Shown here: one piece after another, positions 2,712 through 23,884 of the stretch
How positions within the stretch are numbered: the stretch's first letter is position 1
How the letters are laid out: each line of letters begins with the position of its first letter
IMG/VR virus record: IMGVR_UViG_3300045020_000037
Coordinates: 1-27,023 of that record
Length of the DNA: 27,023 bases
Origin: a virus
Strand: one strand, 5' to 3'
Position numbers and translations under genes: made by a program
The notes under the pieces: model-generated
Told to the model about the DNA's origin: nothing
The model's input: the letters and a program-made list of their open reading frames with translations, nothing else
Databases searched by the model: none

Positions 2712-2819
2712 GGCTGGCGCGAACTCCCTCCGCATCCGCGCTGATTTCGTACAAAATTTTTTGGGCGATAAATCCCGAAGAAACCGACAGTCTCGTGATC
2801 TTCGCGCAACTTGGCGGCG

Positions 2820-4457
2820 ATGAGCGCTGATCTCTCGACATTGGGCCGAGCTGGCTTGCTGGCGTTTCTGCGGGCTGACGCGGCATTGCGGCGGCGGCAG
2901 GAGAAGCGGGCGGCCGAGGAGAGCCTGTACGAGTTCGTGGCGCTGATGTGGCACGCGGTTGAGCCGGAGACGCCGTTTGTGGGCGGGTGGGTCTTGGAGG
3001 CGGAATGCCGGCATTTGGAGGCGGTGACTGACGGCGAGGTGACGCGGCTGCTGATGAATGTGCCGCCGGGGAGCACCAAGAGCCTGCTGACGAGCGTGTT
3101 TTGGCCGGCGTGGGAATGGGGGCCGCGCCGGCGACCGCACCTGCGGTATCTGTGCTGTGCGTATGCCGGGCACTTGACCTTGCGGGACAACCGGCGGTTC
3201 AAGTCGGTAATCGAGGACGAGGTTTACCAGCGGTATTGGGGCGACGTGTTCCGGCCGCGAGCCGACATGTACTCGACTGTTCAGGTCGGGAACGACAAGA
3301 CGGGATGGAAGCTGGCCTCGTCGGTTGGGGGTGTGGGGACCGGGGAGCGGGCTGACCGGGTGATCATCGACGACCCGAACAACCCGCTGGAGGTCGAGTC
3401 GGAATTGATCATGAAGTCGACGACGACGTGGTTTCGCGAGGTCATGCCGGATCGGTTGAACGATCTCCAGCGGTCGGCGATCGTGGTCATTCAGCAGCGC
3501 ACGCACGACATGGATGTATCTGGGACGATCCTCGAGCTGGGGTTGCCGTACTGCCATCTGTCGATCCCGATGCGGTTCGACGTGCAGCGCCGGATATTGG
3601 CGACGGATGTCGGATGGGTCGACCCGCGAGCACTGGACGGGGATGGGGAAATCCTGCCGGGGCTGGCGGACGACGGCACGGTTATGCAGGGCTCGCCGCT
3701 GGCCGAGCGGGATGGGCTGCTGGCATGGCCCGAACGTTTTACCGAGGACGCGCTGCGAGAGTTGGAGGAAGCCAAGGGTTCCTACGCTTGGTCATCACAA
3801 TACCAGATGCTTCCGGTGCCGCGCGGCCAGGGGATCATCCCGGAGCACTATTGGCAATTGTGGGCGCGTGAGGAGTTTCCCGAGTACGGGACGTGCGTGG
3901 CGTCGCTCGACACGGCGTATGAGGAGCATGCCGAAGCAGATTACAATGCGCTGACGGTGTGGGCGGCGTTTGAAGACCCGGAGAGCGGGCGGCCGAAGCT
4001 GATGCTGCGGGATGCGTGGCAGGTGCGGTGCAAGCTTGCCGAGCTGGTCAAGCGCGTGATCGCGAGCTGCCGGGAGCACAAGGTCGACCGGCTATTGATC
4101 GAGAAAAAGACGCGCGGGACCGATGTGCGGGACGAGATCGAGCGCTTGACGCGCGGACGCGAGTTCGGCATTGAGTTGATTCTGCCGTCCGGCGACAAGG
4201 TATCGCGACTGAACGCGTGCCAGGCGATTTTCGAGAACAAGGTCATCTATGCGCCGGACAAGGAATGGGCGGATATGGTGATCCGGCAGGTGGCGGCATT
4301 CCCCTACGGGCGGCACGACGACTTGGTGGACACCTGCTCGATGGCCCTGATCTACCTGCGGGCGCACGGCGTTGCAGTGCGACGCGAGGAGCACGACATG
4401 ATGGTGACGGAGCGGCGCCGGTATCAGAAGCCATTGGCGGCGATTTACGATGTCTGA
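2820..4457 (+). CDS. Terminase large subunit (packaging ATPase-nuclease)
   Basis: This motor protein pumps phage DNA into the prohead and cuts it. Residues about 82-88 (PPGSTKS within MNVPPGSTKS) form the Walker A-type loop. Residues about 181-186 (VIIDDP) form Walker B with the catalytic acidic residue. The C-terminal RNase H-like nuclease has its first Asp in SLDTAYEE, a middle acidic segment near LIEKKTRGTD and the final HDDLVD motif near residue 499. The length (545 residues) is normal. ATG 2820 (MSADLSTLGR) is chosen over the TTG at 2811. Its TGA overlaps the next gene by 8 bases at a sequence repeated 458 bp downstream. Confidence 0.95.
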   Translation: MSADLSTLGRAGLLAFLRADAALRRRQEKRAAEESLYEFVALMWHAVEPETPFVGGWVLEAECRHLEAVTDGEVTRLLMNVPPGSTKSLLTSVFWPAWEWGPRRRPHLRYLCCAYAGHLTLRDNRRFKSVIEDEVYQRYWGDVFRPRADMYSTVQVGNDKTGWKLASSVGGVGTGERADRVIIDDPNNPLEVESELIMKSTTTWFREVMPDRLNDLQRSAIVVIQQRTHDMDVSGTILELGLPYCHLSIPMRFDVQRRILATDVGWVDPRALDGDGEILPGLADDGTVMQGSPLAERDGLLAWPERFTEDALRELEEAKGSYAWSSQYQMLPVPRGQGIIPEHYWQLWAREEFPEYGTCVASLDTAYEEHAEADYNALTVWAAFEDPESGRPKLMLRDAWQVRCKLAELVKRVIASCREHKVDRLLIEKKTRGTDVRDEIERLTRGREFGIELILPSGDKVSRLNACQAIFENKVIYAPDKEWADMVIRQVAAFPYGRHDDLVDTCSMALIYLRAHGVAVRREEHDMMVTERRRYQKPLAAIYDV

Positions 4458-5102: not shown

Positions 5103-5455
5103 GCCGCAACGGCACGCCGCCGGATATCCCGGAACTGGAGATTGCGGGGCATATCGCCGAACGTCTCCGGCCGGGAACGCCCGGTGGCGCACAACCGTCG
5201 TGCGAGGCCTGCGATTTCATGCGCCGCGAGGGCAATGCGATGCGGTGCTACTATGAGCCCCCGACGCCGATGTTGATCGCGACCGTCCCGAGCAAGATCG
5301 CGGGCGGCCCTCCGCAGCTCGTCATCGCCGGCCTGTCGCCGGAAGTCCATGCGGCGCGGTTCTGCCGGCATCATCCGATGCTGGAGGGGCGGGCGCTCGG
5401 GCCATTGGGGGCAGCCCCAATGTCGCCCGGCTACGGTGCGGAATCGCCGAATTGA
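5099..5455 (+). CDS. Small Cys4 protein, unknown
   Basis: This 118-residue protein contains Cys35-x2-Cys38, Cys50 and Cys89, the last in FCRHH. The set could bind zinc or an iron-sulphur cluster. The middle (PPTPMLIATVPSKIAGG) is beta-like and the end is Gly/Pro-rich. No named family is recognised. The ATGA junction with the upstream gene and the TTGA junction with the head-tail adaptor place it inside the tightly coupled late operon. A virion or assembly role is possible. Confidence 0.65.
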   Translation: MSRNGTPPDIPELEIAGHIAERLRPGTPGGAQPSCEACDFMRREGNAMRCYYEPPTPMLIATVPSKIAGGPPQLVIAGLSPEVHAARFCRHHPMLEGRALGPLGAAPMSPGYGAESPN

Positions 5456-6174
5456 ACTACGCCGACAACCTGATGTTTTTGATGCAGTACACGGGCGACA
5501 GCGGGTACGCGGCGAATACCGACTGGCTCGCCCAGATACCAGCCTTCATCTTTTCGGCCGAAAACCGCATCCTGCGCGACCTCGACCTGTTGGCGGCGCG
5601 CGTGACCGATTCGTCGGCGCAGATGACGCCGAACAGCCGCATCTTCTTCCTGCCGACGATGATCGGGACGTTCCAGGTCGTCGAGACGATCGCCCTGATC
5701 GACCAGAACGGCTACCATCACGCGCCGTTGTTGCCGGTGTCGAAAGAATTGCTGGACGCGATGTATCCGAACGAGGGCGCGGTCGGCGACCCCAGCATTC
5801 CGCGCTACTGGGCGCCTTATACCGACACGGCGGTCCTCGTCGGGCCGGCCCCGGGCTTCGACTTTTTCGTCCAAGTCTACGGCGTGCAGCGCCCGGCGCC
5901 GCTGAGCGCGTCCAATCCCGACACCTTCATCTCGGTCAACCTGCCGGACTTGATGCTTGCTGCCGAGATGATCGATTCGTCGGCATGGTGCAAGAATTTC
6001 GGCGCGATGTCCGACAACCCTGCTCAGGCGCGCGACTGGAACCAGGAATACGAACGCCTGAAAGGCATAGCCAATGTTTGGGAGCTTCGGCGCAAGGTTC
6101 AGTCGAGCGGATGGTCTACCCGGATGCCGAACCCGGTAGCGAGGCCAGTTCCGGCTCGACCGGCTGCGGCTTGA
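5452..6174 (+). CDS. Head-tail adaptor, SU10-type
   Basis: The protein resembles the phage adaptor family typified by phage SU10, which forms the ring beneath the portal to which the tail attaches. Support comes from the start MNYADNLMFLMQYTGD, the helical IPAFIFSAENRILRDLDL segment near residue 30, and the later QVYGVQRPAPLSASNPDTF with LAAEMIDSSAW, a helix-turn-helix-like pattern seen in such adaptors. The length (240 residues) fits. The start is a TTG overlapping the previous TGA, so it probably depends on coupled translation. It precedes the gp10-like protein, as expected for tail machinery. The family assignment is from memory of conserved patterns. Confidence 0.65.
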   Translation: MNYADNLMFLMQYTGDSGYAANTDWLAQIPAFIFSAENRILRDLDLLAARVTDSSAQMTPNSRIFFLPTMIGTFQVVETIALIDQNGYHHAPLLPVSKELLDAMYPNEGAVGDPSIPRYWAPYTDTAVLVGPAPGFDFFVQVYGVQRPAPLSASNPDTFISVNLPDLMLAAEMIDSSAWCKNFGAMSDNPAQARDWNQEYERLKGIANVWELRRKVQSSGWSTRMPNPVARPVPARPAAA

Positions 6175-6237: not shown

Positions 6238-6297
6238 GTGAGCCGCAAGGGGACAGGAACACCGATCGGCTCCGCGCGCTGTTCGCCGTGCCGTTAG
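6238..6297 (+). CDS. Possible 19-residue leader peptide
   Basis: A GTG at 6238 follows a very good ribosome site (GAGGGAGA) and opens a 19-codon frame (MSRKGTGTPIG...CSPCR). It stops with TAG at 6295-6297, overlapping the GTG of the tail gene at 6288. The tail gene itself has no clear ribosome site, so this may be a coupling leader. The rest of the 6175-6287 spacer shows nothing definite. Confidence 0.25.
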   Translation: MSRKGTGTPIGSARCSPCR

Positions 6298-7712
6298 TCT
6301 CGATCAAGCTGAAACCCGGCATAAATTCCGTTCAGACGCCCACGCTCAATGAATCGGGCTGGGTCAGCGGCTCGAATATCCGGTTCTTTCAGGGCTTGAT
6401 GCAGAAGGATGCGGGGTTCGTCGACCTGTTCACCAGCACGGCCGGCATCATCAAGGCCCTAAAGGCATGGACGGCGCTGTCGGGGCAGTCATACCTTGGT
6501 GTCGGCGCGCAGAACGCCCTTCAACTTTGGAACGGTTCCACTTTAACCGACATCACGCCGTCGTCGGGATGGGCGATGCCGGCGGCAATCGTCACGCTCG
6601 ACAACTGGGGCGAGTTCCTGATGGCTTGCGCGCAAGCCGGTCAGATTTTTGTCTGGCAACCCGAGCTTGGGGGTCCGGCGCTCCCGATCGGCGGCGAGGC
6701 GCCCGCGCAGGTCGGTTTCATCTTTGTTGCGACACAGGAACAGCAGCTGGTTGCCTGCGGCAGCACGAACGAGACGACCTTCACTTACGACCCGATGCTC
6801 AACAGCTGGTCGGATGTCGGAGACTACACGACTTGGACGGCGGCGGCGGACAACGAGGCCGGGACTTTCCGGCTGGCGATTGGATCGGCCCAGCGTGCTG
6901 GCCTCGCGATGGTCGGGCAGAACCTGCTCTGGACCGATACGGCCCTCTATTCGATGTCCTACATCCAGCCTCCGCTGGTTTACGGCTTTGTGCCGCTGGG
7001 AGTGAACTGCGGAGCCGACGGCCCCCATGCGGTCGGCATTCTGGCCGGTCAGATTGCCTGGAAAGGGCCAAACCAGTTCTTCACCCTTGGCCCCGCCGGC
7101 CCCCAACAGATCGAATGCCCGGTCTGGGATCAGGTGTTCCCGAACCAAGACCCGGAGAACCTGATCAACACGACCTGCCAGACCGACAGCTACTACGGTG
7201 AAATCGGCTGGATGGTATTGCAGCTTTCGGGCGAGTACGTCTTTGCGCGGGTCAATCTCGCGACCGGCGCCTGGACGGTGGATGTCTATCACCCGCACAC
7301 GGCCTGGATCGACCAGAGTGTGTTCGGGGCGCCGATCGGCGGTCATTCGACGGGATTAGTCGATCAACACGATATCGGTTATGACGCCAATGGTGCGCCA
7401 GCCGCGTGGAACGCTATGACCGGCGTTATGATGCTCTCGGAAGGCACGCAGGTCATATTCGTGCAGGATTTTCTTCCCGATATTGCTGCCCAAGGAACCG
7501 CTCCGACGATCCAATGGACATTCTTTTTTTATGATTACCCGAATTCGCCGCCGCGCTCTCACGGGCCGTTCGTAACCACACAATCGACGCCCGTCATCCA
7601 TCCACGCGGACGCGGGAGGGGATTTCAAATCCAGATAGCCGGCAATGACGTGGGCACATTTGCGCGCCTTGGAAATTGCCGCTATCGCGGCAGCCCGGAT
7701 GGGGGCAGATGA
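6288..7712 (+). CDS. Tail stabilisation / nozzle protein, P22 gp10-like
   Basis: This 474-residue protein matches the length of P22 gp10 (about 472), which plugs the portal channel after packaging and forms part of the tail hub. The N-terminus carries the pattern KLKPGIN...ESGWVSGSNIRFF...KDAGF, seen in podovirus tail proteins of this class. The C-terminus ends with an HPRGRGRG strand and RLGNCRYRGSPDGGR, also typical. The body is Trp/Gly-rich beta sheet, consistent with a propeller-like fold. GTG 6288 is the start. The last 180 bases are more AT-rich. Gene order after the adaptor fits. Confidence 0.75.
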   Translation: MPLVSIKLKPGINSVQTPTLNESGWVSGSNIRFFQGLMQKDAGFVDLFTSTAGIIKALKAWTALSGQSYLGVGAQNALQLWNGSTLTDITPSSGWAMPAAIVTLDNWGEFLMACAQAGQIFVWQPELGGPALPIGGEAPAQVGFIFVATQEQQLVACGSTNETTFTYDPMLNSWSDVGDYTTWTAAADNEAGTFRLAIGSAQRAGLAMVGQNLLWTDTALYSMSYIQPPLVYGFVPLGVNCGADGPHAVGILAGQIAWKGPNQFFTLGPAGPQQIECPVWDQVFPNQDPENLINTTCQTDSYYGEIGWMVLQLSGEYVFARVNLATGAWTVDVYHPHTAWIDQSVFGAPIGGHSTGLVDQHDIGYDANGAPAAWNAMTGVMMLSEGTQVIFVQDFLPDIAAQGTAPTIQWTFFFYDYPNSPPRSHGPFVTTQSTPVIHPRGRGRGFQIQIAGNDVGTFARLGNCRYRGSPDGGR

Positions 7713-8011
7713 TGGCTTACGCACTACTGAAAATTTTCGGGGATGAGAAAGGCATCAGGGCAGCCTATGACGCCAATCCATCGGTAATCAAGAGATGCAT
7801 AGAAGAAGAAATAGCTGCCCATGCACCACTGCTGCCGCGCGACTATGTCTCGCGCGAATATATGATGATGTTGCGGCGCGTGCTTGGTATTCACGGAGAA
7901 AACCTTCATCAGCAGCATGAGAAGCAAATGCGGGACGCATTGGCGAGGGCGGGCATTACGAAAGAAACGGTCCTGGCCAATATCCAGACCGAGCTGGCGA
8001 AGAAGTCCTGA
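7709..8011 (+). CDS. Unknown 100-residue helical protein
   Basis: ATG 7709 forms an ATGA junction with the gp10-like stop; ATG 7712 is an alternative. The protein (MMAYALLKIFGDEKGIRAAY...) is highly helical with many charged residues and a Met run (REYMMMLRRVLG). The C-terminus (TKETVLANIQTELAKKS) is a further helix. No family is recognised. Base composition is more AT-rich than the flanking structural genes, suggesting a later insertion. It could be a small tail chaperone or an unrelated accessory gene; position alone does not decide. Confidence 0.6.
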   Translation: MMAYALLKIFGDEKGIRAAYDANPSVIKRCIEEEIAAHAPLLPRDYVSREYMMMLRRVLGIHGENLHQQHEKQMRDALARAGITKETVLANIQTELAKKS

Positions 8012-8652
8012 TGTCTGGGGCTCCTGGAGGCGGTGGGCTCGGGGGAGGGGGGCTGTTCTCCGGGCTGGTCACACAACTCAATCTGATTGCCCAGAATCTC
8101 GGGCGCCTCGTCACGCAGACGGCGCTTGCGGTCGTAATCCCGGTCCCGCAGGGCGGCACGGGCGCCACCACGCCAAGCCAGGCGCGCACCAATCTCGAAA
8201 TTACGACGCCGGGCACGCCCAATCACCTGGCGGCCTTCGCGACCGCGAACTCGTTTCAGGACGGCGGTCTTGGCGGTTCCTACCAGCTCGGCGCGCTGCT
8301 TGGGGCAAATTTCAACGTGACGATCGATCAGGCAATCCTAGTCGCGTTGCCTCCGGGAGCCTCCGCTTATGTCATCGAGGCCGTCGTGGCGTCACATGCC
8401 AGCGTGTCGCTGACGACTGCGGTTGGGGGCATCTACCTTGGCCCGAGCAAGACCGGGCTCCAGGTGGTCGCGGCAAGCCAAGCCTATTCGGGGTTGACCG
8501 GGACAGCGATTAACACGGCAGGGAGCGCATTGCCCCTGACGGTTTACCAAGGGGCTTTTTTGAATGTCGGCACAGCGTATTTTTCATTGACAACGCCGCA
8601 GGGTGTTGCCGCCACGGCTGACCTGCGCGTATATGGCAGGGCATTGTTCTAG
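8011..8652 (+). CDS. Short tail-fibre-like protein
   Basis: This 213-residue protein opens with a Gly-rich linker (GGGGLGGGGLFSG) and a hydrophobic helix. It then has the tail-fibre signature VPQGGTGATTPSQARTNL near residue 46, the GGTGAT...ARTNL pattern repeated in many phage fibres. The remainder is Ala/Thr/Gly-rich beta strands, consistent with a trimeric head or tip. It may attach a receptor-binding element to the tail or be a short fibre itself. The ATG shares one base with the previous TGA. No enzymatic motif is seen. Confidence 0.65.
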   Translation: MSGAPGGGGLGGGGLFSGLVTQLNLIAQNLGRLVTQTALAVVIPVPQGGTGATTPSQARTNLEITTPGTPNHLAAFATANSFQDGGLGGSYQLGALLGANFNVTIDQAILVALPPGASAYVIEAVVASHASVSLTTAVGGIYLGPSKTGLQVVAASQAYSGLTGTAINTAGSALPLTVYQGAFLNVGTAYFSLTTPQGVAATADLRVYGRALF

Positions 8653-8695
8653 GAGACAGTCGATTCCGCTCGCGCCAGGACACAGCCGGGGTATC

Positions 8696-9589
8696 GTGAG
8701 CCGGAATATTTCCGAGATGGTTCACAGTGGTCATCCGCAGGCTCAGGCGGTCGCTGCAGCATTGTCCAATGCGCGCCGCCATCCTCATGCGACAGGCGGC
8801 ATCGTCGGTTATCAGGGCGGCGGCGGCATGCCGATCGAGCCCAGCAACACAAACCAGAACCCGATTTCGCAGGGCGTCATCCAGCAGATATCCCAGTTGC
8901 CGACCGAGAAATTGCAGGAGCTGGCGTCCTCCGGCATCGCCGGCCCGCAGACCGCGATCATCCAGCGTGTCCTTCAGGCGCGCCACATGCAGCCGCCAAT
9001 GCCCGCGATGCCGGCCGCTCAGTCGCAGCAGCCTCAGCCCGCAGCCCCCCCTGCAATGCAGGAGGGTGGCGATGTCGACTGGATGGAGGACGCGAAGCTC
9101 GCGCGCAATGTTCCACGTGGAACATCCGGTTTCATCCACTCGCCAGTCCCCGGCCGTACCGACCTGATCAATGCGCAGCCGCTGGTGGGGAGCTATGTCG
9201 TCCCGGCCGATGTCGTCTCGGGTATCGGCGAGGGCAATTCGCTGGCCGGCGCCGCTCTGTTGCAGCGCGCGATGTCTGTCGGGCCTTACGGAGTGCCGCT
9301 GCCGCCGCATCGCGGGGGCGGGGTCGGCATCCCTCGGCCTCCCGCGCGCTTTACCGAGCCTCTGATGGGTCCGGCAGCGGCGCGCGGAGGACGCACCAAG
9401 GAACGCGAGGGCGACCCGACGCCGATCCTCGCGGCCGGCGGCGAGTACATCGTGGCCCCGCATGTCGTGCGCGCGTGGGGAGGTGGCAATTTGAAAAAGG
9501 GCCATGACGTTCTTGACCATTGGGTTGTGAAGAAGCGCAAGGAAATAGCTAAAAAGATGTTGTCATTGCCGCCGCCGAAAAAGAAATGA
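8696..9589 (+). CDS. Virion-associated protein with GG-rich motifs
   Basis: I take the GTG at 8696 (MSRNISEMVHSGHPQAQAVAAALSN, 297 residues) because upstream codons back to 8603 overlap the previous gene. The protein has Gly-rich patches (GGIVGYQGGGG), a Gln/Pro-rich linker, PGRTDLINAQPLVGSYVVPADVVSGIG (quoted in two parts: PGRTDLINAQPL and VGSYVVPADVVSGIG), and near the end GGEYIVAPHVVRAWGGG with a Lys-rich tail. Such GEYV/PADVV motifs occur in internal or tape-like virion proteins of podoviruses. The role is uncertain. Its coding sequence contains the parS-like palindrome at 9108-9125. Confidence 0.65.
   Translation: MSRNISEMVHSGHPQAQAVAAALSNARRHPHATGGIVGYQGGGGMPIEPSNTNQNPISQGVIQQISQLPTEKLQELASSGIAGPQTAIIQRVLQARHMQPPMPAMPAAQSQQPQPAAPPAMQEGGDVDWMEDAKLARNVPRGTSGFIHSPVPGRTDLINAQPLVGSYVVPADVVSGIGEGNSLAGAALLQRAMSVGPYGVPLPPHRGGGVGIPRPPARFTEPLMGPAAARGGRTKEREGDPTPILAAGGEYIVAPHVVRAWGGGNLKKGHDVLDHWVVKKRKEIAKKMLSLPPPKKK
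9108..9125. promoter_or_regulatory. parS: parS-like 18-bp perfect palindrome
   Basis: ATGTTCCACGTGGAACAT is a perfect palindrome whose inner 16 bases fit the broadly conserved bacterial parS consensus TGTTNCACGTGNAACA at every fixed position. ParB binds parS to nucleate DNA partition complexes. The site lies inside a virion gene, around codons 138-143. No parA or parB gene is present in the window, so it may be read by host ParB or by a phage ParB encoded elsewhere. Confidence 0.75.
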
Positions 9590-9780
9590 CAGTTCCGTCG
9601 TCCGATCCTTTGTGGAAAGAAATGCGCGCTGGCATTCGGTCGATTTGGGCGCACAACCCAACCCGCATGCGTGCAGAATTGGGATATTTGGAGAACGCTC
9701 GTCAGCTCAGTCTAATAGACGAGAAAACAAAGGCACGGGGGTCGCTCTGGAAACAATTTCTACGTAATTGTCTGCCATGA
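9586..9780 (+). CDS. Unknown 64-residue protein
   Basis: The ATG at 9586 overlaps the upstream TGA (ATGA). The protein (MTVPSSDPLWKEMRAGIRSI...) is basic and helical, with Trp residues and the segment NPTRMRAELGYLENARQLSL. No family is recognised. It is more AT-rich than its neighbours and overlaps the acetyltransferase start by four bases. A small accessory or coupling role is possible but not supported by any motif. Confidence 0.55.
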   Translation: MTVPSSDPLWKEMRAGIRSIWAHNPTRMRAELGYLENARQLSLIDEKTKARGSLWKQFLRNCLP

Positions 9781-10307
9781 GCGCCATTCGCAGCATCTTC
9801 GAGCGCGCCGCCGAGGCGAAGCCAGTCACTGGCCCGACCTCGCGTCCCGATGGCGTGCGGATTGCCGTCAAGGCTGACGAGAGGGCGCTCTTCGATTTGC
9901 TGATGACCCGCGCGGCCGAGGAAAATTCGATGGCCCCGGTCAACGAATTCAAGGTGCTCAATGGCATTCAGGTCGCCACGGAGCGCAAGGGCGGCGTAAT
10001 CGGCATTATCGACACGGCCGAGGGCGAGGTTGCCGCATCGGTGTGCCTAGTCATGGCGCAGCTGTGGTACACCGAATCCTGGCACTACGAAGACCTTTGG
10101 TGCTACGTGCATCCCGACCGCCGCAAGGGAGCCAACAATTACGCACAGCGGCTCATCCAGTTCGCGAAGTGGTTCGGCGAGCAAGCCGGCTGCCCCGTGC
10201 TTCTGGGAGTCGCGTCCAATACCCGGACGTTGGGCAAGATCAGACTCTACTCTCGCAATATCCCGCTGATCGGGGCCGCATTCTTGTGGCGAGGGGCAAA
10301 TGGGTAA
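9777..10307 (+). CDS. GNAT-family N-acetyltransferase
   Basis: This 176-residue protein fits the GNAT fold: beta strands around GGVIGIID and VAASVCLVMAQLWYTE, then WCYVHPDRRKGANNYAQRLI, where RRKGAN (residues about 115-120) matches the acetyl-CoA-binding (R/Q)xxGx(G/A) loop, followed by a helix. The C-terminal strand LYSRNIPLIGAAFLW resembles the usual last motif. The enzyme would transfer acetyl from acetyl-CoA to an amine; the substrate is unknown. It sits between virion genes, sharing an ATGA with the preceding gene and 8 bases with the next. ATG 9777 is chosen over TTG 9768. Confidence 0.75.
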   Translation: MSAIRSIFERAAEAKPVTGPTSRPDGVRIAVKADERALFDLLMTRAAEENSMAPVNEFKVLNGIQVATERKGGVIGIIDTAEGEVAASVCLVMAQLWYTESWHYEDLWCYVHPDRRKGANNYAQRLIQFAKWFGEQAGCPVLLGVASNTRTLGKIRLYSRNIPLIGAAFLWRGANG

Positions 10308-13300
10308 AGGGAGCGGCGGGGGCAGCACCAATACGGTTGTACAGAATTCCCAGCCGCCGCAGCAATTCCTCAACGCATACCAAAATGCCGTCACGCAGGC
10401 GCAGGGCGTCGCATCGACCCCGTACCAGCCGTATGGGGGCCAAATCGTAGCGCCGCTGACAGGCTCCCAGCAGGCCGCAATCGCGAACGCCCCGTCCAGC
10501 TCGGGCGATTGGTCGCCTTACGCGGGACAAGCGCAATCTTATCTCGGCCAAGCGACCGGCACAGACTTTGGCGGCACTTTCGCGCCATACGCAAGCAACG
10601 CAATGGACAGCGTGTCCGCTGCGGCGACACCGTTTTATGACACGGTCAACAATTACCTCAGTCCATATGTCGGCGATGTCGTCAATTCCACCGAGCAACA
10701 GTTCAACAACCAGAATGCCATTCAGCAATCGCAGGTGCAGGGCAACGCCGTGTCTCAGGGTGCATGGGGCGGCGACCGATCGGCTGTAGCGCAGGGCATT
10801 GTCGCGGGCCAACAACAGGCGAACGAGGCCCCCGTTATTGCCGGGTTGTACAATTCCGGTTATGGGCAGGCAATGAGCGCTGATGAGGCGCAGGGGCAGC
10901 TCAATTTGGGAGCGGCGCAGACGACGGGCCAGATTGGCTCGCAGATGACAAATGCGCAGGAAGCCAATGCCTGGTTGGCAAGCAACGCCGCTTCGCAGGA
11001 AGGCCAGCTCGGGCTGGAAAACTTCAACGTCGACCAGGGCACCCTCAATCAGGAGATGCAGTTCGGCAGCCTGGCCCAGGCGCAAAATCAAGCAGAACTC
11101 AATGTTCCTTACGAGCAATATCAAGCCAGTCAGGCGTACCCGTTCCAGACGGCGGGGTGGCTCGCCAACATCGAGGAGGGGATAGGGTCGGGGGCTGGCG
11201 GAACGTCGCAGACAACGAGTCCGGGCGCTTCGCCGGTCAGCCAGGCGCTCGGCTTGGGCGTTGGCGGCCTCGGTATCCTCGGCGCCACAGGTGCGTTCGG
11301 GTCGTCGGGCTATCTGACTGGCGCGGGGGGACTTCTCAGTAGTCTTGGCAGCGGCGCGGACATAGCGGGGTTGGGGGCGGACTCCGCCATTGACGCAACC
11401 GGCGTCTCGTCGGCCGCCGACATAGCGTCGGGGTTGCCGCTGCTTTTCAGGCGGGGCGGCGTCGTGCCTCGCCGAGACAATGGCGGCTCGATAGCCGATT
11501 CCGGGACAGCGGCGCTCTTGAATGCAATCAGTGCCACCGGGAAGGCCGATGTCGATGCGCTGCTTCGGGGCGGGATCGTGCGTCGGCAGGGCGGCGGCGA
11601 TGTGCCGACTCAGATTGGCGCGATGCCGTATCAGCAGATGCCGCAGTCGTCCGACGTGCCGAATGTCGGCATCTCGATCGTGCCGCAACTGCCGCAGATG
11701 CGCGGCGGGACCGGGCCTCCGCGACCGCCGCAAGCGGCCCCGAACACGTCGAACCTGACGCCGCAGGGCATCATGGGGATGCTCCAACAGTCGGGCGGCT
11801 TTGGACAGAACGGGTGGCTTGGGCAATTGTCGTCCGGCATCCAGGGGTCGCGCCGTGGCGGAGGGGTCGCGCCGCCGCGCTACCAGGATGGCGGCGACCT
11901 TGTATCCGGGCTGCCGCCGCCCGATCAGCCGACCTATCTCGGAATCTCACCGGACATGCGTTCCGGCAGCGGCCCTCCGGCCCTGGCAGCGGCACCCGCG
12001 CCTTCGGTTCCCGCGTCGGGTCAAAGCGGTGCGGCACCGTCGATACCGGCAGCAGCCCCGCTTGCCGATGTCATCAGCGGCGGCGGTTTGGGACCGTTGG
12101 TCAACCAGGTCATCCGCAACGAGGGCGGCTCGCCCAAAGGTGTTGCCAATAATCCCGGCAACATCAAGTTCGCCGGCCTTCCCGGTCAGGTGGACAGCGG
12201 CGTGCGCGCGACGGATGGTGGCACGTTCGCGTCTTATGCGTCTCCCGAGGACGGCCGCAATGCGGTCGCGCAACTGGCGGTCAACGCCGCGCGAGGCGCC
12301 TCGCCGTCCTACGGAAAGAGCCCGACCGTCGCCTCTTTCATGGATACTTACGAGGGCCACCAGGAAGGCGCCCGTGCATCGCAGACGGGACACTCCGTTG
12401 GAGAGCGACCGAGCAACGGCCCGTTGGGAACGGCGCCCCCAGGAGCGCCCCCGCTTGAAGCGCCAGTTACCAGCGAGCCGGGCGCGGGCGTCGTTCCGTC
12501 TTCGATGCCGTCCGGGGGCATTTCCGGCCAGCCAGCCGGCATGTACTCGCCGGGCGTCAACCCGTGGCTGGCGCTCGCGGCGGCGGGGTTCGCGACGGCT
12601 GCCGGCCGCTCCCCGCAGGCGTTGCAGAATATCGGCGCCGGGATGCTGACCGGGGTGCAGACGCTCGAAAGCGAGCGTGCGGCCCTCCCCGACCAGCAAT
12701 TAAAGCTGGCACAAGGCCAGATGGCGAATCTCCAGGTCCAGAACGCGCAGGCAATGCGGGCCTATTTCAACGGTCAGCATGCCGACCCGTCGCCGGTCGC
12801 CGACCAGCTTGACCGCAACATCGACGCGGCCCGCACAGGTATCGCGAAGTCCGGCGAGACGCAGGCCGTCTCGACGCCGACAGGTGCGATGGCGCCTCTT
12901 GCCGGCACGACGCAAGGGACGCCGTTGTCGACCGACGAACAGGCAATGTCCGGTCAAGTGCAAAGCCAGATCGCCAATATCGACCGGATCATCGCCCAGC
13001 AGTCCGATTTGGCACGGTTTGCGTCGACGCCTGAGCAGATGAGCTCGATGCAGGCGAATTTGGCAAATCTGGCAATCCGGCGCTCGGAACTGTTGAAGGA
13101 AGACCCGGCCTATCTAAGGGCCGCCTCTCAAGCCGAGGGCGAAGGAAAGGTCGGGCCGGCGATCCAGCAGGCTGCCGGCGAGGCCGCCGCCAAGCTGCCG
13201 TACACGGTCACAACCGCGCGGCCGGGCAGCTATATTCTTCAGGGCGGTCAGCCGGTGGCCGCTACGCCGCTTCAGCGGCCGGCGATCGACCCGGCGACCG

Positions 13301-14118
13301 GCAATGAGTATCCGCGTTTCGTGACGCCGCCGTTGCCGGGACAGGTCGCTCCGACAGCGACAGGCGCGACAGGCGCGTCTCCTCCTCCGGCTGGCGCGCA
13401 GGGTGTCCCTCCCAATGGTTCGGCGGCGGCCGGCATTGCGCCGGGTGAGGTTCCGAGCAAGCTGGGTGTCGGACCCGAGACGGCGCTTCGTGAGCGCGCC
13501 GAGGCGGAACAGAAGGACCGCCAGGAGACGATCGAAGGCGGCGAGTCTGCGCAGACGCAACAGGCCATCCTGTCCAGGCTGAAGGACGATGCGCCGCAGT
13601 TCACTCAGGGGCCGTTCGCCGGCTACACGCAGACCGCCAACACCTATCTGCGTGCGCTGTTCGGCACGCAGGCCCCGCAGGTCGCTTCCTACGAGGATTT
13701 TGTCAAGAATGCGGGCTCGCTGACCCGCGCGGCCGTGCGGGAAACGTCATCGCGCGCGGCGGTTCAGGAATTTCGGCTGATCGATGCGACCTTGCCGAGC
13801 CCCGAGATGTCGCCGCAAGGACTGCAACAGGTCATCAACGAGTATCAGGGCCTGAACGACTTTAAGCTCGCCAAGGTGCAGGCTCAGCAGCAATGGGAGC
13901 AGCAGCACGGCGGGATCGGGAACGTTCAGGGTTTCGAGACAGACTGGCAGGCGAAAGTCTCGCCCTATGCCTTCGTGTTCAATCGGATGGACCCGGCCGA
14001 GCAAACCGGGCTTGTCAGCCGGTTGAGCGCAACGCCTGACGGTCGTGCCGAGCTAAGCCATCTTGCTCAGCAGCTTCAATACGCCAAAAGCGCCGGGTTG
14101 GAGCCCTATATTCAGTGA
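10300..14118 (+). CDS. Large internal virion/ejection protein with hydrolase-like segment
   Basis: This 1272-residue protein is probably a tail-lumen or ejected protein. The N-terminal third carries NPYxxxVV/GAWGGDR-type features (NNYLSPYVGDVVNST, then GNAVSQGAWGGDRSAVAQG near residues 149-167), seen in large podovirus structural proteins. Four or more RGG-type patches follow (FRRGGVV, LLRGGIV, SRRGGGV). Residues about 600-690 look like a peptidoglycan lytic domain: VIRNEGG with candidate catalytic Glu608, then NNPGNIKF and FASYASPEDGRNAV. The last third is Gln/Ala-rich helical coil. Start 10300 has a GAGGGG ribosome site. The GTGA junction couples it to the next gene. Hydrolase activity is inferred. 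Confidence 0.7.
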   Translation: MGKGSGGGSTNTVVQNSQPPQQFLNAYQNAVTQAQGVASTPYQPYGGQIVAPLTGSQQAAIANAPSSSGDWSPYAGQAQSYLGQATGTDFGGTFAPYASNAMDSVSAAATPFYDTVNNYLSPYVGDVVNSTEQQFNNQNAIQQSQVQGNAVSQGAWGGDRSAVAQGIVAGQQQANEAPVIAGLYNSGYGQAMSADEAQGQLNLGAAQTTGQIGSQMTNAQEANAWLASNAASQEGQLGLENFNVDQGTLNQEMQFGSLAQAQNQAELNVPYEQYQASQAYPFQTAGWLANIEEGIGSGAGGTSQTTSPGASPVSQALGLGVGGLGILGATGAFGSSGYLTGAGGLLSSLGSGADIAGLGADSAIDATGVSSAADIASGLPLLFRRGGVVPRRDNGGSIADSGTAALLNAISATGKADVDALLRGGIVRRQGGGDVPTQIGAMPYQQMPQSSDVPNVGISIVPQLPQMRGGTGPPRPPQAAPNTSNLTPQGIMGMLQQSGGFGQNGWLGQLSSGIQGSRRGGGVAPPRYQDGGDLVSGLPPPDQPTYLGISPDMRSGSGPPALAAAPAPSVPASGQSGAAPSIPAAAPLADVISGGGLGPLVNQVIRNEGGSPKGVANNPGNIKFAGLPGQVDSGVRATDGGTFASYASPEDGRNAVAQLAVNAARGASPSYGKSPTVASFMDTYEGHQEGARASQTGHSVGERPSNGPLGTAPPGAPPLEAPVTSEPGAGVVPSSMPSGGISGQPAGMYSPGVNPWLALAAAGFATAAGRSPQALQNIGAGMLTGVQTLESERAALPDQQLKLAQGQMANLQVQNAQAMRAYFNGQHADPSPVADQLDRNIDAARTGIAKSGETQAVSTPTGAMAPLAGTTQGTPLSTDEQAMSGQVQSQIANIDRIIAQQSDLARFASTPEQMSSMQANLANLAIRRSELLKEDPAYLRAASQAEGEGKVGPAIQQAAGEAAAKLPYTVTTARPGSYILQGGQPVAATPLQRPAIDPATGNEYPRFVTPPLPGQVAPTATGATGASPPPAGAQGVPPNGSAAAGIAPGEVPSKLGVGPETALRERAEAEQKDRQETIEGGESAQTQQAILSRLKDDAPQFTQGPFAGYTQTANTYLRALFGTQAPQVASYEDFVKNAGSLTRAAVRETSSRAAVQEFRLIDATLPSPEMSPQGLQQVINEYQGLNDFKLAKVQAQQQWEQQHGGIGNVQGFETDWQAKVSPYAFVFNRMDPAEQTGLVSRLSATPDGRAELSHLAQQLQYAKSAGLEPYIQ

Positions 14119-16812: not shown

Positions 16813-19011
16813 GTGTCTGAAGCAAAGGGACTCTCGCGGTTTCAGCCTGTCGTCGCGGATGGCGGCGTCGGCACGCCTCGCATTCCGACACAGACAAGCG
16901 CCGACCTGCTGACCCTGCGCCGTGTCGCCGATGAGGTCCGGCGGGTTGCCGACGACATCGAGCCGGCCGAGCCAGAGGGTGGCGAGGATGACGATTTCGA
17001 CCAAAATCTTGCCGAGGACATGGATGCGACGGCGCATGCCAAACTGGCGAGCGAGTTGCTGCTGGGCATCGACGCGGACCTGAAGTCGCGCGAGCAGTGG
17101 GAGAAGATCACCGAGAAGGCGATCGAGTACCTTGGGCTGATTTTCGAGGGTGCGACCGGGCAGGTTTCACCGCAAGGCAGCATCGCGACCGTCTGGCATA
17201 CCCTTATGCTGGAGTCGTCGATCCAATTCTGGGCGAATGCGCAGGCCGAGTTCCTGCCCGCCGAGGGGCCGGTCAAAATCCGCGACGATAAGCTGCCGGC
17301 AACACGCGGCGGCGTCGGAGACAATGGCGGCCCTTCGCTCGACGACAGCGAGGATCAGCCGTTTGCGTCGCGGGATGAGAAATCCGAGGCGCTGGAAACG
17401 CTCTTCAACCATTATCTGACGGTCGGCGACAAGCAGTACTACCGCGACTTCTCGCGGATGCTGTTTGCGCTCGGCCCGATCGGGACGCAATTCCGCAAGG
17501 TCTACTACAACCCGCTGCGCCGGATGCCGGTCAGCGAGTGGGTAAAAGCCGAAAACCTGATCGTCTCGAATGACGCGGTTCACCTCGCGACCGCTGGCCG
17601 CGTCACCGAGAAGATCATGGTCAGGCACGCCGACCTGCGGCGCATGCAGTGGCTTGGGCTATGGCTCAAGCAGCCGGTCGGGACTCCCGTCGATCGCCCG
17701 ACCGGCATCGAGGAGATAATCGGGCAGGTCGAAGGCATTCAGCCCGGCCCGGAGCTGCCGGCGGACTTCCGGCACACTGTCTACGAATGCTACTGCGAGC
17801 TCAATCTCGCGAACGACGAGCATTTGGATGAGGACGGGGAGCCGACCGGCATTCCCCGACCCTATCGGGTGTCGATCGACAAGGACAGTCGGCGCATCCT
17901 CGAAATCCGCCGCAACTGGCGCAAGGAAGACGAGAATTTCGAAGCACGCCAGCGCTATGTGATGTTCGGGATGATCCCCGGATTCGGCTTCTATTACCTC
18001 GGCTACGTTCATGTGCTCGGCAACACTGAGCGCGCCCTGACGGCGATCGAGCGCGAGATGATCGATGCCGGGATGTTCGCGAGCTTTCCGGGGTTTCTGT
18101 GGAAAAAGGGGGCGCGCCCTGACACGACACAAACGCGTATTCCGCCGGGCGGTGCTCAGGAGGTCAACATCGGAATGGCGGACGACATTCGGAAGGTCGT
18201 CATGCCGGTTCCGTACAAGGACATCTCGCCGCAACTCATGGCATTAGCCGAGAAGCTGGAAAGCAACGGCCGCAAGCTCGGGTCGATCCTCGAGATGCCG
18301 GTCGGCGAGGGCATGGCGAATGTCCCGGTCGGCACGATCCTGTCGATGATCGAAGAAGGCACCAAGATCGTCGCGGCGGTTCACAAGGGGCTGCATTTCA
18401 GCCGCACCGAGGAATTGCAGCTTCTGAAAGAACTGATCGCCGAAGACCCATCGGTTCTGACGCGGGGCAATCCGACGCAGCGCGACCGGGTTATCGACCA
18501 GCAGGAATTCGACGATGCCAACCTAGTGCCGTCGAGCGACCCCAATACGCCGTCGCACATCCACCGGGTCATGCGGGCCACCGCCTATGCGCAACTCAAG
18601 CAGATTTTCCCCGAGATCAACTCGCCGCTGGCATTGGAACGTATTTTGCGGATTATCCGCGATCCCGACCCGATGCCGATGATCCTGCCGCAGCAGCCCG
18701 GAGCCGGGCAGCCTGCCCCGCAGGCCATTACCGCGCAGGCTCGCGTTCAGACGGCGCAGATTCAGGCGCAGTCCCGGCAACAGTCCGATCTTGTCGACGC
18801 GCAGACGAATGCGGCCGATCGCGCCAGCAAGGAGCGCATTGCCCAGATGGGCGAGATTACTGAGCGGATGAAGGACGCGACCGATGCGCAGACGGAAACA
18901 GCAAAGCTCAATGCCGATCGCCAGGATGCGCAACTTGACCGTGACCATGAAACGGGGCTAGAGAGACAGCGACAGGCACAACCCGGCATTGCGCCGCAGA
19001 GGGTTTTGTGA
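16813..19011 (+). CDS. Portal protein
   Basis: The portal forms the twelve-fold ring through which DNA enters and leaves the capsid. At 732 residues it is close to P22 gp1 (725). Support: the N-terminal helical region, EQWEKITEKAIEYLGL, WHTLMLESSIQFWANAQAEF with FLPAEGPVKI (the stem/wing hallmark of this portal class), the long middle with GMIPGFGFYYLGYVHVLGN, and a Gln/Ala-rich helical C-terminus (residues about 640-720) resembling a barrel. GTG 16813 has a GGAAGGCGG ribosome site. It sits after the tail and ejection genes, not next to terminase, which is unusual. Confidence 0.85.
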   Translation: MSEAKGLSRFQPVVADGGVGTPRIPTQTSADLLTLRRVADEVRRVADDIEPAEPEGGEDDDFDQNLAEDMDATAHAKLASELLLGIDADLKSREQWEKITEKAIEYLGLIFEGATGQVSPQGSIATVWHTLMLESSIQFWANAQAEFLPAEGPVKIRDDKLPATRGGVGDNGGPSLDDSEDQPFASRDEKSEALETLFNHYLTVGDKQYYRDFSRMLFALGPIGTQFRKVYYNPLRRMPVSEWVKAENLIVSNDAVHLATAGRVTEKIMVRHADLRRMQWLGLWLKQPVGTPVDRPTGIEEIIGQVEGIQPGPELPADFRHTVYECYCELNLANDEHLDEDGEPTGIPRPYRVSIDKDSRRILEIRRNWRKEDENFEARQRYVMFGMIPGFGFYYLGYVHVLGNTERALTAIEREMIDAGMFASFPGFLWKKGARPDTTQTRIPPGGAQEVNIGMADDIRKVVMPVPYKDISPQLMALAEKLESNGRKLGSILEMPVGEGMANVPVGTILSMIEEGTKIVAAVHKGLHFSRTEELQLLKELIAEDPSVLTRGNPTQRDRVIDQQEFDDANLVPSSDPNTPSHIHRVMRATAYAQLKQIFPEINSPLALERILRIIRDPDPMPMILPQQPGAGQPAPQAITAQARVQTAQIQAQSRQQSDLVDAQTNAADRASKERIAQMGEITERMKDATDAQTETAKLNADRQDAQLDRDHETGLERQRQAQPGIAPQRVL

Positions 19012-19673
19012 TGGCCCATCCGCACGAGCATCTTCGCGCCGAAGAGCAAAAGCACGCCGAGCGCCACGTTCGCCGGGCTGGCTACAAGGCGGGAGGCCGC
19101 ATCTCAGACGAGAAACAGGACCGCAAGCTCGTTGCCGAGGGCGTTCACAAGCACGAGCGCCATGACCACAAAGGCGAGCCATTGACGCCACTGCGCGGGG
19201 GCGGGTCGGTCAAGGGCCATGCGGGGCGCGCTCGCGCCGACAAGATGGCGCGTGGTGGCGAGGTGAAGAGCCGAGGGCCGGCCAAGATCAACATCGTCAT
19301 TGCGACCGGCGGAGGCGAACCGGAGCGCCAGATGGCTTTCCGTCAGGGCACGCAGGTCGGGACGCGCCTTGGTGCTGCAGCAGCGCGGCCAATGCCGCCT
19401 GGCGCTGGTGCACCTCCGATGCCGCCGCGCCCGCCGATGGGGGGAATGCCTCCGGGCGGTGCTCTGCCGATGGGGGCGCCCCCGCCGGGTGCCGTGCCGC
19501 CGGGTGGCGGGATGATGCCGCCACCGCGCCCTGGGATGATGAAGCGCGGCGGTGCGGTTCTGACGGCTGGTGCCGGAGGCGGCGAAGGGCGACTCGAAAA
19601 GGCCGGCATGGAAGACAGAGTCAAAGTGCGCGGCCATACGCGGCGAAAGGCAGGCGGTCGTATCTGCGAATGA
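19011..19673 (+). CDS. Basic His/Gly/Pro-rich protein with RGG-type motifs
   Basis: ATG 19011 shares a base with the portal TGA; a GTG at 19008 is an alternative. The 220 residues start with a His/Lys/Glu-rich segment (MAHPHEHLRAEEQKHAERH). They continue with RGGGSVKGHAGRARADKMAR near residue 63, related to motifs in two proteins at 26189-26874, then a Pro/Gly/Met low-complexity region (residues about 125-180) and a final RRKAGGRI. The protein is strongly basic and probably largely disordered. It could bind DNA or bridge structural proteins; no known family is assigned. Position between portal and scaffold suggests a head role. Confidence 0.6.
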   Translation: MAHPHEHLRAEEQKHAERHVRRAGYKAGGRISDEKQDRKLVAEGVHKHERHDHKGEPLTPLRGGGSVKGHAGRARADKMARGGEVKSRGPAKINIVIATGGGEPERQMAFRQGTQVGTRLGAAAARPMPPGAGAPPMPPRPPMGGMPPGGALPMGAPPPGAVPPGGGMMPPPRPGMMKRGGAVLTAGAGGGEGRLEKAGMEDRVKVRGHTRRKAGGRICE

Positions 19674-19870
19674 TCCCGCTGCCGGAATTCGTGCATCTGC
19701 TGCGCAAGGGCATCGACGAGCGCATGGCGGAATTGGCCGCGCCGCTGGTCGAAGGGCAGGCTATAGACTTCGCCAGCTATAAACAGCAAGCGGGCGTCAT
19801 CGTTGGGCTGCGTGAGGCGCGCCAGCAAATCGACGATCTAATCAAACGAGTAAATGAGGGACCACTTTAA
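19670..19870 (+). CDS. Unknown 66-residue protein
   Basis: The ATG overlaps the upstream TGA (ATGA), and its TAA is immediately followed by the next ATG. The protein (MIPLPEFVHLLRKGIDERMA...) is helical with a Gln-rich centre (FASYKQQAGVIVGLREARQQ) and ends IDDLIKRVNEGPL. Small proteins with an LIKR-type end occur next to head genes in many phages, but the role is unknown. The compact junctions support real translation. Confidence 0.6.
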   Translation: MIPLPEFVHLLRKGIDERMAELAAPLVEGQAIDFASYKQQAGVIVGLREARQQIDDLIKRVNEGPL

Positions 19871-20479
19871 ATGTCGAAGGAATTATACGCAAATTCCGCG
19901 CTGCATCGGTTCGTCCGCTATAATGCGCGCAGCGAAATCATGAAAGCTGTCGGCGACATTTCCGGCATTGAGCTGTTCGGCACGCAGCTGCTGGTGGCCC
20001 CGTATGTGCGGTCGGGCATTCTGCTGTCGCCGACCCTCGGCATCCCGGAAAGCGAAGTCCTCTCCTGCGACGCTCTCGCCGAGCTTTACGAGTCCGGGCG
20101 GGGCTTCATGGCGCAGAAGTTCGCGGTGGAGGATCTTTTCCAAGGCAAGGTCTGTCTCGTTTTGGCGCTCGGCACCGGGCTTCTCGAAACCGAAGCGCGG
20201 CGCAAAGAGATCGCCGAGCGCCTGGACAGCGATTTATCGCCGGATGAATACGCTGATCTTCAGGACGAGGCGGCGTCATTAAAGCCGCTCGAATTTGGTG
20301 TCGGCGACTGGGTGTTCACCCTCCAAGAAAACACTCGTGGCGTCTCGATCAGTGCGCCGGGAGCGCAACAGAGCCGCGTCCTTAAGGCACTTGGCATTGA
20401 CTATGTTGGTTGGCCGTCCAAATTTCTGTATGCATCTGATGTTTACGGCCGGCTGAATGATCCTAACATTTTGGCGTGA
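19871..20479 (+). CDS. Putative GroES-like (co-chaperonin-fold) protein
   Basis: In 202 residues the order of segments follows GroES. IELFGTQLLVAPY (33-45) stands where GroES has its first PLHDRVIV-type strand, QGKVCLVLALGTG (91-103) where GroES has GEVLAVGNG, KPLEFGVGDWVF (138-149) where GroES has KPLDVKVGDIVIF, and LYASDVYGRL (186-195) at the C-terminal strand. Two insertions make it about twice the usual GroES length: residues 46-90, where the mobile loop would be, and 104-137, which are helical. Lying between portal and scaffold, it could assist coat folding with host GroEL. This is a pattern argument; a generic beta-barrel head protein is the alternative. Confidence 0.4.
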   Translation: MSKELYANSALHRFVRYNARSEIMKAVGDISGIELFGTQLLVAPYVRSGILLSPTLGIPESEVLSCDALAELYESGRGFMAQKFAVEDLFQGKVCLVLALGTGLLETEARRKEIAERLDSDLSPDEYADLQDEAASLKPLEFGVGDWVFTLQENTRGVSISAPGAQQSRVLKALGIDYVGWPSKFLYASDVYGRLNDPNILA

Positions 20480-22975: not shown

Positions 22976-23884
22976 ATGGCAATCACGACTGCCCAGATCC
23001 CGGCTCTCTTGCTTCCGGGCGTGCGCAAAATCAAAGGCGACTACGCCGAAATCCCGATGCAGCAAAGCCAGGTGTTCGCCTGGACGCATTCGGACCTTCA
23101 GGTCGAGCGCACTGTGTCGGCGCGCTATCTGCCGCTCGCCGGCCTGAAAAATCAGGGAATGCCGACGAATTTCGACAATGGCGCCGGTCAGCGCTACGTC
23201 TACTCGCACATCCATGTCGCGATCGGGCTCGGTTACTCGTTCTCGCGGGAGTCGATCGACGACAATCTCTACAAGCAGCAATTCGACCCGACCAACCTCG
23301 GGCTCATCAAGTCGTTCCGTCAGACCAAGGAAATCATCGCCGCCGACGTGTTCAACACCGGCAACGTCTACAATGCAGCGATTGGCGGCGATGGGGTAGC
23401 CCTGTTTTCGACGGCCCATCCGATCGACGGCGGCACAGTCGCCAACACGCCCGCGAACCCGATCGGCCTCAATGAGGCGTCGCTGCTCTATCTGAACAAC
23501 CTCGTTCGCCGGTTCCGCGACAATGCGGCACTCCTCATTGGCGCGCAGGCGAAGAAGCTGTTGGTTCCGGTCGAACTGCGCCACGTCGCCAAGCGGCTGC
23601 TCGAAACGCCGCTCCGCCCCGGCACGACCGACAACGACACCAATGCCGTCAAGGAATACAACGACCTGACCGACGGCTACCTGGTCATGGACTTCCTGAC
23701 CAGCCCCTACGCGTGGTTCCTGTGCTCCGACCAAGGCGGTTTCATCGGCCTCGATCGCGTGCCATTCGAGACCAGCATGCAGGTTGATTTTACGACCGAC
23801 AACTTGCTGGTTAAGGCATACGAAAGATACTACATTGGGTTCGACGATTGGCGAGCTGGGGCCGGCTCGTTCCCGCTGAATTGA
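22976..23884 (+). CDS. Major capsid protein (HK97 fold, gpT-like)
   Basis: The shell-forming coat protein: 302 residues, near the length of Mu gpT-type coats (about 305) and much shorter than P22 coat (430). Support: an N-terminal arm, YSHIHVAIGLGYSFSRESID (spine/peripheral region), a central FSTAHPIDGGTVAN, the LIGAQAKKLLVPVELRHVAK segment, YLVMDFLTSPYAWFLCSDQG, and the end YERYYIGFDDWRAGAGS. A GGGAG ribosome site precedes ATG 22976. It lies after scaffold and decoration genes, as expected. The HK97 fold is inferred from the pattern; gpT kinship is tentative. Confidence 0.85.
   Translation: MAITTAQIPALLLPGVRKIKGDYAEIPMQQSQVFAWTHSDLQVERTVSARYLPLAGLKNQGMPTNFDNGAGQRYVYSHIHVAIGLGYSFSRESIDDNLYKQQFDPTNLGLIKSFRQTKEIIAADVFNTGNVYNAAIGGDGVALFSTAHPIDGGTVANTPANPIGLNEASLLYLNNLVRRFRDNAALLIGAQAKKLLVPVELRHVAKRLLETPLRPGTTDNDTNAVKEYNDLTDGYLVMDFLTSPYAWFLCSDQGGFIGLDRVPFETSMQVDFTTDNLLVKAYERYYIGFDDWRAGAGSFPLN

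Follow-up and report, generated by a model that had tools for sequence, protein, structure and literature searches.

parS palindrome in the window

The locus described here raises the question of why a phage carries, inside one of its virion genes, an exact copy of the bacterial chromosomal parS site, and whether the ParB protein of the host reads it. Direct reading of the window, by which we mean the whole 27,023-base record that was analysed, gives a perfect 18-bp palindrome, ATGTTCCACGTGGAACAT, at positions 9108-9125. The chromosomal parS consensus, TGTTNCACGTGNAACA, has one match in the window, at 9109-9124, with 0 mismatches and 14/14 fixed positions, which confirms what the sequence-only reading had noticed; the exact 16-mer is TGTTCCACGTGGAACA. 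Complementarity also extends to the two N positions and to the outer A/T pair, neither of which follows from the 14 fixed parS positions. Even when 3 mismatches are allowed, no second parS-like place is found in the window. Dinucleotide-shuffled sequence already contains 0.53 places per window at up to 3 mismatches, so that the signal is the exact match and not the number of near matches. The rarity of such a match, put by the same reading at about 1 in 10,000 per window, proved somewhat greater: the number of exact parS expected per window is 3.4e-5, 1.8e-5 and 1.9e-5 under Markov models of order 1, 2 and 3, respectively, and 7.7e-6 when the proteins are fixed and synonymous codons are redrawn from the phage usage, all of this last value coming from the 9109-9124 position. 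These raw expectations overstate the surprise, because the first reading screened many kinds of motif. The window site is an exact, symmetric and single chromosomal-type parS.

Gene context and coding constraints

Judged by its terminase, adaptor, portal, capsid and ejection genes, the window belongs to a tailed phage. Its features are the following.

2811..4457, + strand, terminase large subunit (phrog_38, E 3e-75)
5452..6174, + strand, SU10-type adaptor protein (PF24175, E 6.3e-15)
6288..7712, + strand, virion structural (stabilization-type) protein (phrog_3287, E 6.9e-35)
8011..8652, + strand, upstream neighbour of the site-bearing gene (ORF, no family match)
8603..9589, + strand, site-bearing gene, virion-module protein (ORF; phrog_2423, unknown function)
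9768..10307, + strand, acetyltransferase-like gene, next downstream of the site (weak match, phrog_1249, E 0.00025)
10300..14118, + strand, DNA ejection / internal virion protein (phrog_4287, E 2.3e-22)
16813..19011, + strand, portal protein (phrog_1216, E 1.8e-13)
22976..23884, + strand, major capsid protein (phrog_371, E 2.3e-07)

The capsid protein of the window matches the major capsid protein of MW202675 at 54.6% and is about 35% identical to those of HTVC023P, DSL-LC04 and the Alcaligenes phage vB_Af_QDWS535. Ahead of the terminase, positions 1-2279 form a variable region, whose alignment to the near-identical relative G001 (IMGVR_UViG_3300027029_000001, 66,965 bases) is limited to short pieces.

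As had been proposed from the letters, the palindrome lies within the coding sequence of a virion gene, the ORF at 8603-9589 being placed among virion genes. Its product has 328 aa as listed from the GTG at 8603. This GTG overlaps the preceding gene, and the homologue in MW202675 (51% over aligned columns) starts opposite an isoleucine codon near 8663, a comparison by which the real start may be close to that position. From 9107, the codons of the site are AAT GTT CCA CGT GGA ACA, which encode N V P R G T in phase 2. Over the 15 genes of the window, GTT, CCA, CGT, GGA and ACA each represent 7-17% of the usage of their residue, and the six-codon stretches beginning at 9107, 9110 and 9113 rank as the 15th, 6th and 3rd rarest, respectively (n=6326). 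The site occupies one end of a linker that is variable among homologues, where other residues, for example SLPHQ or QLFHE, are found at the site; the MW202675 homologue is without the linker segment that holds it. The presence of other residues in the homologues indicates that the protein does not demand this sequence. A decayed parS in the relatives having LFHEG in the linker was considered and dropped, the phase being different and the differences too many. No promoter-like or terminator-like site was found at 8600-10400, and the RNA fold at the site is ordinary (z-score -0.46), the palindrome forming a 7-bp hairpin in the predicted fold.

The near-identical relative and the search for partition genes

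G001 is 94-97% identical to the window in six long aligned pieces, which span the window from 2279 to its right end, and it carries the same 16-mer once, at 37502, with no other place within 3 mismatches. The site-bearing genes of the two phages differ at 28 of 927 bases (23 synonymous and 5 non-synonymous codons), none of them within 9101-9156. An unconstrained 18-mer survives about half the time at 3% divergence, so that the copy in G001 is no test of conservation.

The sequence-only reading had seen no ParA or ParB gene in the window, and this holds in profile searches. Neither ParB (ParB_N, PF02195) nor ParA (AAA_31/PF13614) was matched in the window or in G001 (27 kb and 67 kb, possibly fragments), and neither record has a further parS copy; the window site, on a phage record, is linked to neither parAB nor oriC. 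ParA was absent from all 15 records searched for it, which include the window, G001 and phi29. G001 encodes a tyrosine integrase and an Erf-type recombinase and is therefore probably temperate. In the same relative (L125), a tRNA-Leu gene (9923-10005) and the tyrosine integrase gene (12408-13538) lie about 2.4 kb apart and form a possible attachment region, and an ORF at 19206-19892 has a weak match to a PEP-CTERM sorting motif.

Conservation among diverged relatives

A query with the site-bearing gene only found the near-identical G001 alone, and a two-family alignment query gave 267 loci, of which the best 80 were retained. The site is absent, at up to 2 mismatches, from all 79 of these loci that carry a diverged gene homologue (G001 excluded). 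Conservation in homologous genes, which had been set as the test of a selected site, does not extend beyond G001. Among the loci related by the portal (80 loci, G001 excluded), exact sites number 0/79 and one-mismatch sites 2/79 (L145 and L202), neither of these two being within a homologue of the site-bearing gene of the window. The scan of whole records, performed for 50 out of the 80 relatives, gave 0/50 with an exact site and 4/50 with a one-mismatch parS (L145, L152, L180 and L202), the reversed control giving 0. The one-mismatch site of L145 (position 5963) stands a few hundred bases before terL, and that of L202 beyond the portal. Seen against these relatives, the window site appears to be either a recent lineage-specific gain or a product of chance.

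Exact parS sites across viral contigs

The exact 16-mer was scanned over 2.9 million viral contigs together with two control palindromes of equal composition. TGTTCCACGTGGAACA (C variant) is found in at least 120 viral stretches and TGTTTCACGTGAAACA, the other common parS (T variant), also in at least 120, whereas the 16-mer read backwards gives 0 and the second control, with the same CACGTG core, 10 stretches. Exact parS is therefore in at least 12-fold excess over controls from the same viral collection, and the share of chance among the exact C-variant matches is at most about 8% on average (10/120) and could be lower. This excess is an average, and it may be concentrated in some phage families.

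Grouped by flanking DNA, the 127 C-variant sites of the 120 loci listed form 97 groups and the 145 T-variant sites of the 119 loci listed form 103. The outer A..T pair present in the window also flanks 37/127 C-variant and 48/145 T-variant sites, and 0/10 control sites. Among the groups whose site is within an ORF of 150 aa or longer, 33/52 of the C variant (VPRGT) and 33/44 of the T variant (VSRET) use phase 2; reading in either other phase would bring Cys and Trp, or Phe and His, into the peptide. The use of the same phase for a different peptide would fit selection on the DNA, with the least disruptive reading being tolerated. Outside ORFs of at least 150 aa are 45/97 of the C-variant groups.

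When site-bearing ORFs of 250 aa or more were scanned against PHROG (74 of 75, one being left out for a coordinate error), 177 families were matched, and the 25 listed include large terminases (phrog_38, 6 members), helicase, polymerase, head-tail adaptor, lytic tail protein and endolysin, which indicates that at least some of the site-bearing records are true phages. ParB_N was detected in 1/50 C-variant records (50 picked among at least 120, mostly long contigs). These counts suggest that an orphan parS is a recurrent and apparently selected feature of some phages; none of the papers listed in our searches of the open-licence PMC literature describes it as a general phage feature, which does not prove novelty. 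Several individual loci are worth recording. An exact parS stands beside a terminator-like hairpin, with diverged flanks, in L030, L033, L046, L056, L075, L091, L096 and L097, and in L096 it adjoins the major capsid gene. One viral contig (L106) has five exact parS in 11.5 kb, and three to five clustered TGTTTCACGTGAAACA sites are found in L321, L328, L355, L364 and L374; these may be phage-plasmids that have a partition locus of their own.

parS sites upstream of terL

In one group (L003/L072) two parS sites are located upstream of terL. A search by similarity of the TerL protein gave at least 600 loci, of which the best 80 (84-100% identity; L433-L511 and L430) were taken as a terL family. 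Its query was taken from a site-bearing phage, so that shared ancestry favours finding sites. An exact site is present anywhere in the stretch in 43/80 of these loci, or in 36/69 groups at 95% nucleotide identity, and among the loci having at least 150 bp upstream of terL, 37/74 have 1-2 exact sites within 220 bp upstream of its start. Over the 449,048 bases of the family, 53 exact, 5 one-mismatch and 0 two-mismatch sites were counted, against 0, 0 and 1, respectively, for the reversed pattern and a random expectation of 0.002 exact sites.

The upstream sites vary in position, from -32 to -134 relative to the terL start. In the ten loci with double sites (L433-L440, L442 and L444), one TGTTCCACGTGGAACA and one TGTTTCACGTGAAACA are associated in 10/10, in either order, the starts of the two sites being 23-24 bp apart. 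In the six double-site loci displayed, the parS sites follow a TATAAT-like element, a position from which host ParB could act at a promoter. When nine loci, picked for having the site, were aligned on it, the 16 bases were intact while the 40-base flanks were identical at a median of 82% upstream and 50% downstream, gaps being uncounted. A motif that remains exact although its position shifts and its variants are exchanged has the look of a protein-binding site under selection.

Searches for ParB gave 0/32 records (24 IMG/VR records of the terL family and 8 named phages). The exact site is found in 14/24 of the terL-family records, 13 with one and 1 with two; among the long ones, those of 48,952, 51,861 and 58,115 bases have one site and those of 56,049 and 77,651 bases are without. 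The terL family and the window thus share an exact chromosomal parS with no ParB found. They differ in that the site of the family is mostly upstream of terL and in half of the lineages, whereas that of the window is inside another gene and in one lineage.

Named phages and known systems

The TerL of HTVC023P and DSL-LC04 is close to the terL family, and no exact site was found in the named phages nearest to this family (023Pt_psg01, HTVC027P, DSL-LC04 and HTVC023P). More broadly, the exact site is absent from 7/8 named records retrieved by the terL and capsid searches, Pelagibacter and Roseobacter phages included. The exception is the Alcaligenes phage vB_Af_QDWS535, whose single exact site, of the C variant, is at 47934 within a small gene that opens the block leading to terL, beside a divergent block. 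Three protein queries for named phages with intragenic sites gave no match or partial matches only.

In phi29 (L432), four exact TGTTTCACGTGGAACA sites were located at 10445, 15903, 17243 and 18760, and ten sites lie within 3 mismatches, compared with 1.34 expected. The exact sites fall in collar, endolysin and replication genes and in one intergenic place; 3/3 intragenic sites are in phase 2 and 3/4 sites are flanked by A..T. To our knowledge, phi29 is the sole natural precedent for a virus using host ParB, and by analogy we take it as the precedent for capture by the host Spo0J/ParB. Its parS sites reportedly mediate the Spo0J-dependent entrapment of its DNA in the spore. The window resembles phi29 by an exact host-type parS, the lack of any ParA found, the intragenic phase 2 and the A..T flanks. 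In contrast, phi29 has four mixed T/G-variant sites and a spore-forming host, whereas the window has one C/G site and a relative, G001, with an integrase. An exact host-type parS with neither ParA nor ParB of its own was found in the window and in G001 (both possibly incomplete), and several parS per genome were not, there being one in the window and one in the 67-kb G001. The entrapment of phi29 DNA in the spore by the host Spo0J (ParB) is described in PMC9437464, which cites Meijer et al. (EMBO J, 2005) for it.

The window site corresponds to the chromosomal consensus, presumably not to a plasmid-type parS. With the ParABS phage-plasmid P1 the window shares a centromere-type site on a phage genome, but ParA and ParB encoded by the phage next to the site were not found in the window. 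According to PMC7022226 and PMC4368675, the parS2 and parS3 of P. aeruginosa and the parS of P. putida are TGTTCCACGTGGAACA, the identical 16-mer; these Pseudomonas sites belong to a host chromosome and are served by the host parAB, whereas the window site is on a phage in which no parAB was found. When phage lambda is engineered with parS, ParB gathers into a focus during infection, according to PMC13190303; this site is artificial, with a supplied CFP-ParB, and not a natural phage feature.

Host and parS variant

In the class to which a beta-proteobacterial MAG (G052) belongs, 36 genomes gave 32 sites, of which 18 are the C/C variant. In the order that includes a Rhizobiales genome (G051), the 63 exact sites found in 61 genomes are all the T variant and none the C/C variant; the latter is found in 3/142 genomes of the class of G051. 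ParB may not read the variable base of parS strictly. Relatives of the portal were found in cellular genomes on a Rhizobiales contig (40%) and on a contig of the beta-proteobacterial MAG (35%). Since the parS variants point to the beta side and the better portal match to the alpha side, neither was assigned as the host. Placement of the host by the integrase was abandoned, the matches being too distant.

Possible roles of the window site

Taken together, these data point to the palindrome as a chromosomal-type parS that was gained by this phage lineage, is kept at the DNA level and recruits the host ParB, a reading to which we give a probability of about 0.6. The exact orphan site, the viral excess and the phi29 precedent all support the earlier proposal that host ParB is recruited, and the part of it that did not stand is conservation in the diverged homologues of the gene. 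The window site is probably a selected and working, although putative, ParB-binding site, as judged from comparison of sequences. The ParB of the host, a CTP-dependent clamp, would load at the single parS of the phage DNA in the cell, and the clamps would slide from there over the neighbouring virion genes. The phage DNA would then pass for a replicon marked by a centromere: the host ParA would place it in the cell and distribute it to the daughters, and the host SMC could possibly compact it too. Such a benefit would apply while the phage DNA persists unreplicated or slowly replicating. We hold only tentatively, at somewhat less than even odds, that partition or positioning is the main use of the site. 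An integrated prophage would not need a partition site of its own, and a parS at an ectopic place on the chromosome can upset segregation (PMC4368675); both count against this use since G001 has a tyrosine integrase.

The sites near the start of terL in other phages suggest control of late genes as the main functional rival: ParB, at parS or spreading from it, would damp or time the transcription of late virion genes, and partition would not be the point. This role would agree with the 37/74 terL loci and the TATAAT-like element of the six double-site loci, with the single site of vB_Af_QDWS535, placed where the terL-side block begins, in its first small gene beside the divergent block, and with the position of the window site within the virion gene block. 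We regard it as unlikely for the window, where the site is intragenic and a promoter-like site is lacking at 8600-10400, all the more as the phi29 sites are dispersed over collar, endolysin, replication genes and an intergenic place, and as sites elsewhere lie in ORFs of terminase, helicase and polymerase families, among others. That the 14/14 match was simply met by chance while many motifs were screened, and has no function in the phage, is rather unlikely. Such an origin would account for the 0/79 gene-homologue loci and the 0/50 whole-record relatives with an exact site; a variable linker tolerates many peptides, descent alone would keep the G001 copy about half the time, and one control 16-mer does occur 10 times in viral contigs. 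It conflicts with an expectation of only 2e-5 to 3e-5 per window, with the viral excess of at least 12-fold over controls, and with traits that match the sites found elsewhere, namely the use of phase 2, the occurrence as one copy and a dyad extended by the N pair and the A/T flank. Chance keeps this minority share because conservation within the lineage of the window could not be shown.

Other readings have less weight. The multiplying phage DNA might soak up ParB or misload SMC and so disturb host segregation, an improbable role: one high-affinity site per replicated genome would compete with the host origins, but a single site per genome would be few for a sponge and damage to segregation would be slow. 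Ectopic chromosomal parS can disturb chromosomes and their segregation, according to PMC4368675. It is very improbable that the site is the cognate of a ParB encoded elsewhere in the phage, as in a phage-plasmid ParABS, beyond the sequenced stretch. The records of the window and G001 may be fragments, and the viral record L021 does have both parS and a ParB domain; against this, no PF02195 or PF13614 was found in these near-identical phages (27 kb for the window, 67 kb for G001), G001 possesses an integrase, and par loci normally adjoin their own parS. That the palindrome acts as an RNA hairpin or terminator, or as a VPRGT peptide motif, and not as a DNA site is hardly credible. The predicted 7-bp hairpin would suit an RNA role, but the fold is ordinary and terminator-like sites are lacking, and for this the hairpin, terminator and promoter readings were rejected; the peptide motif was rejected as well, since the T variant encodes VSRET and the gene homologues have other residues at the site, and the 45/97 C-variant groups outside ORFs of at least 150 aa speak against both.

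Wider meaning

The recruitment of host ParB by the window site may be one case of a general phage strategy, a mimicry of the host centromere in which many separate lineages each acquire one or two exact copies of a chromosomal parS and retain them, and we consider this slightly more probable than its contrary. Most of these lineages would lack ParB, and their sites would either occupy the least disruptive phase of a gene or stand close to a late promoter; clamps of the host ParB would then place the viral DNA in the cell, distribute it to the daughters or control late transcription. Bacterial chromosome segregation by ParB/parS, which is also a CTP switch, is very widely conserved. Should orphan parS prove frequent and under selection in phages, the segregation system of the host would be a general viral target. 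This could account for the maintenance of non-integrated phage DNA in dividing cells (carrier state, pseudolysogeny), and it could link late transcription to host ParB. The parS variant, compared with the host clade, would offer a sequence-based hint of the host, and the sites would provide a natural ParB label for watching infection.
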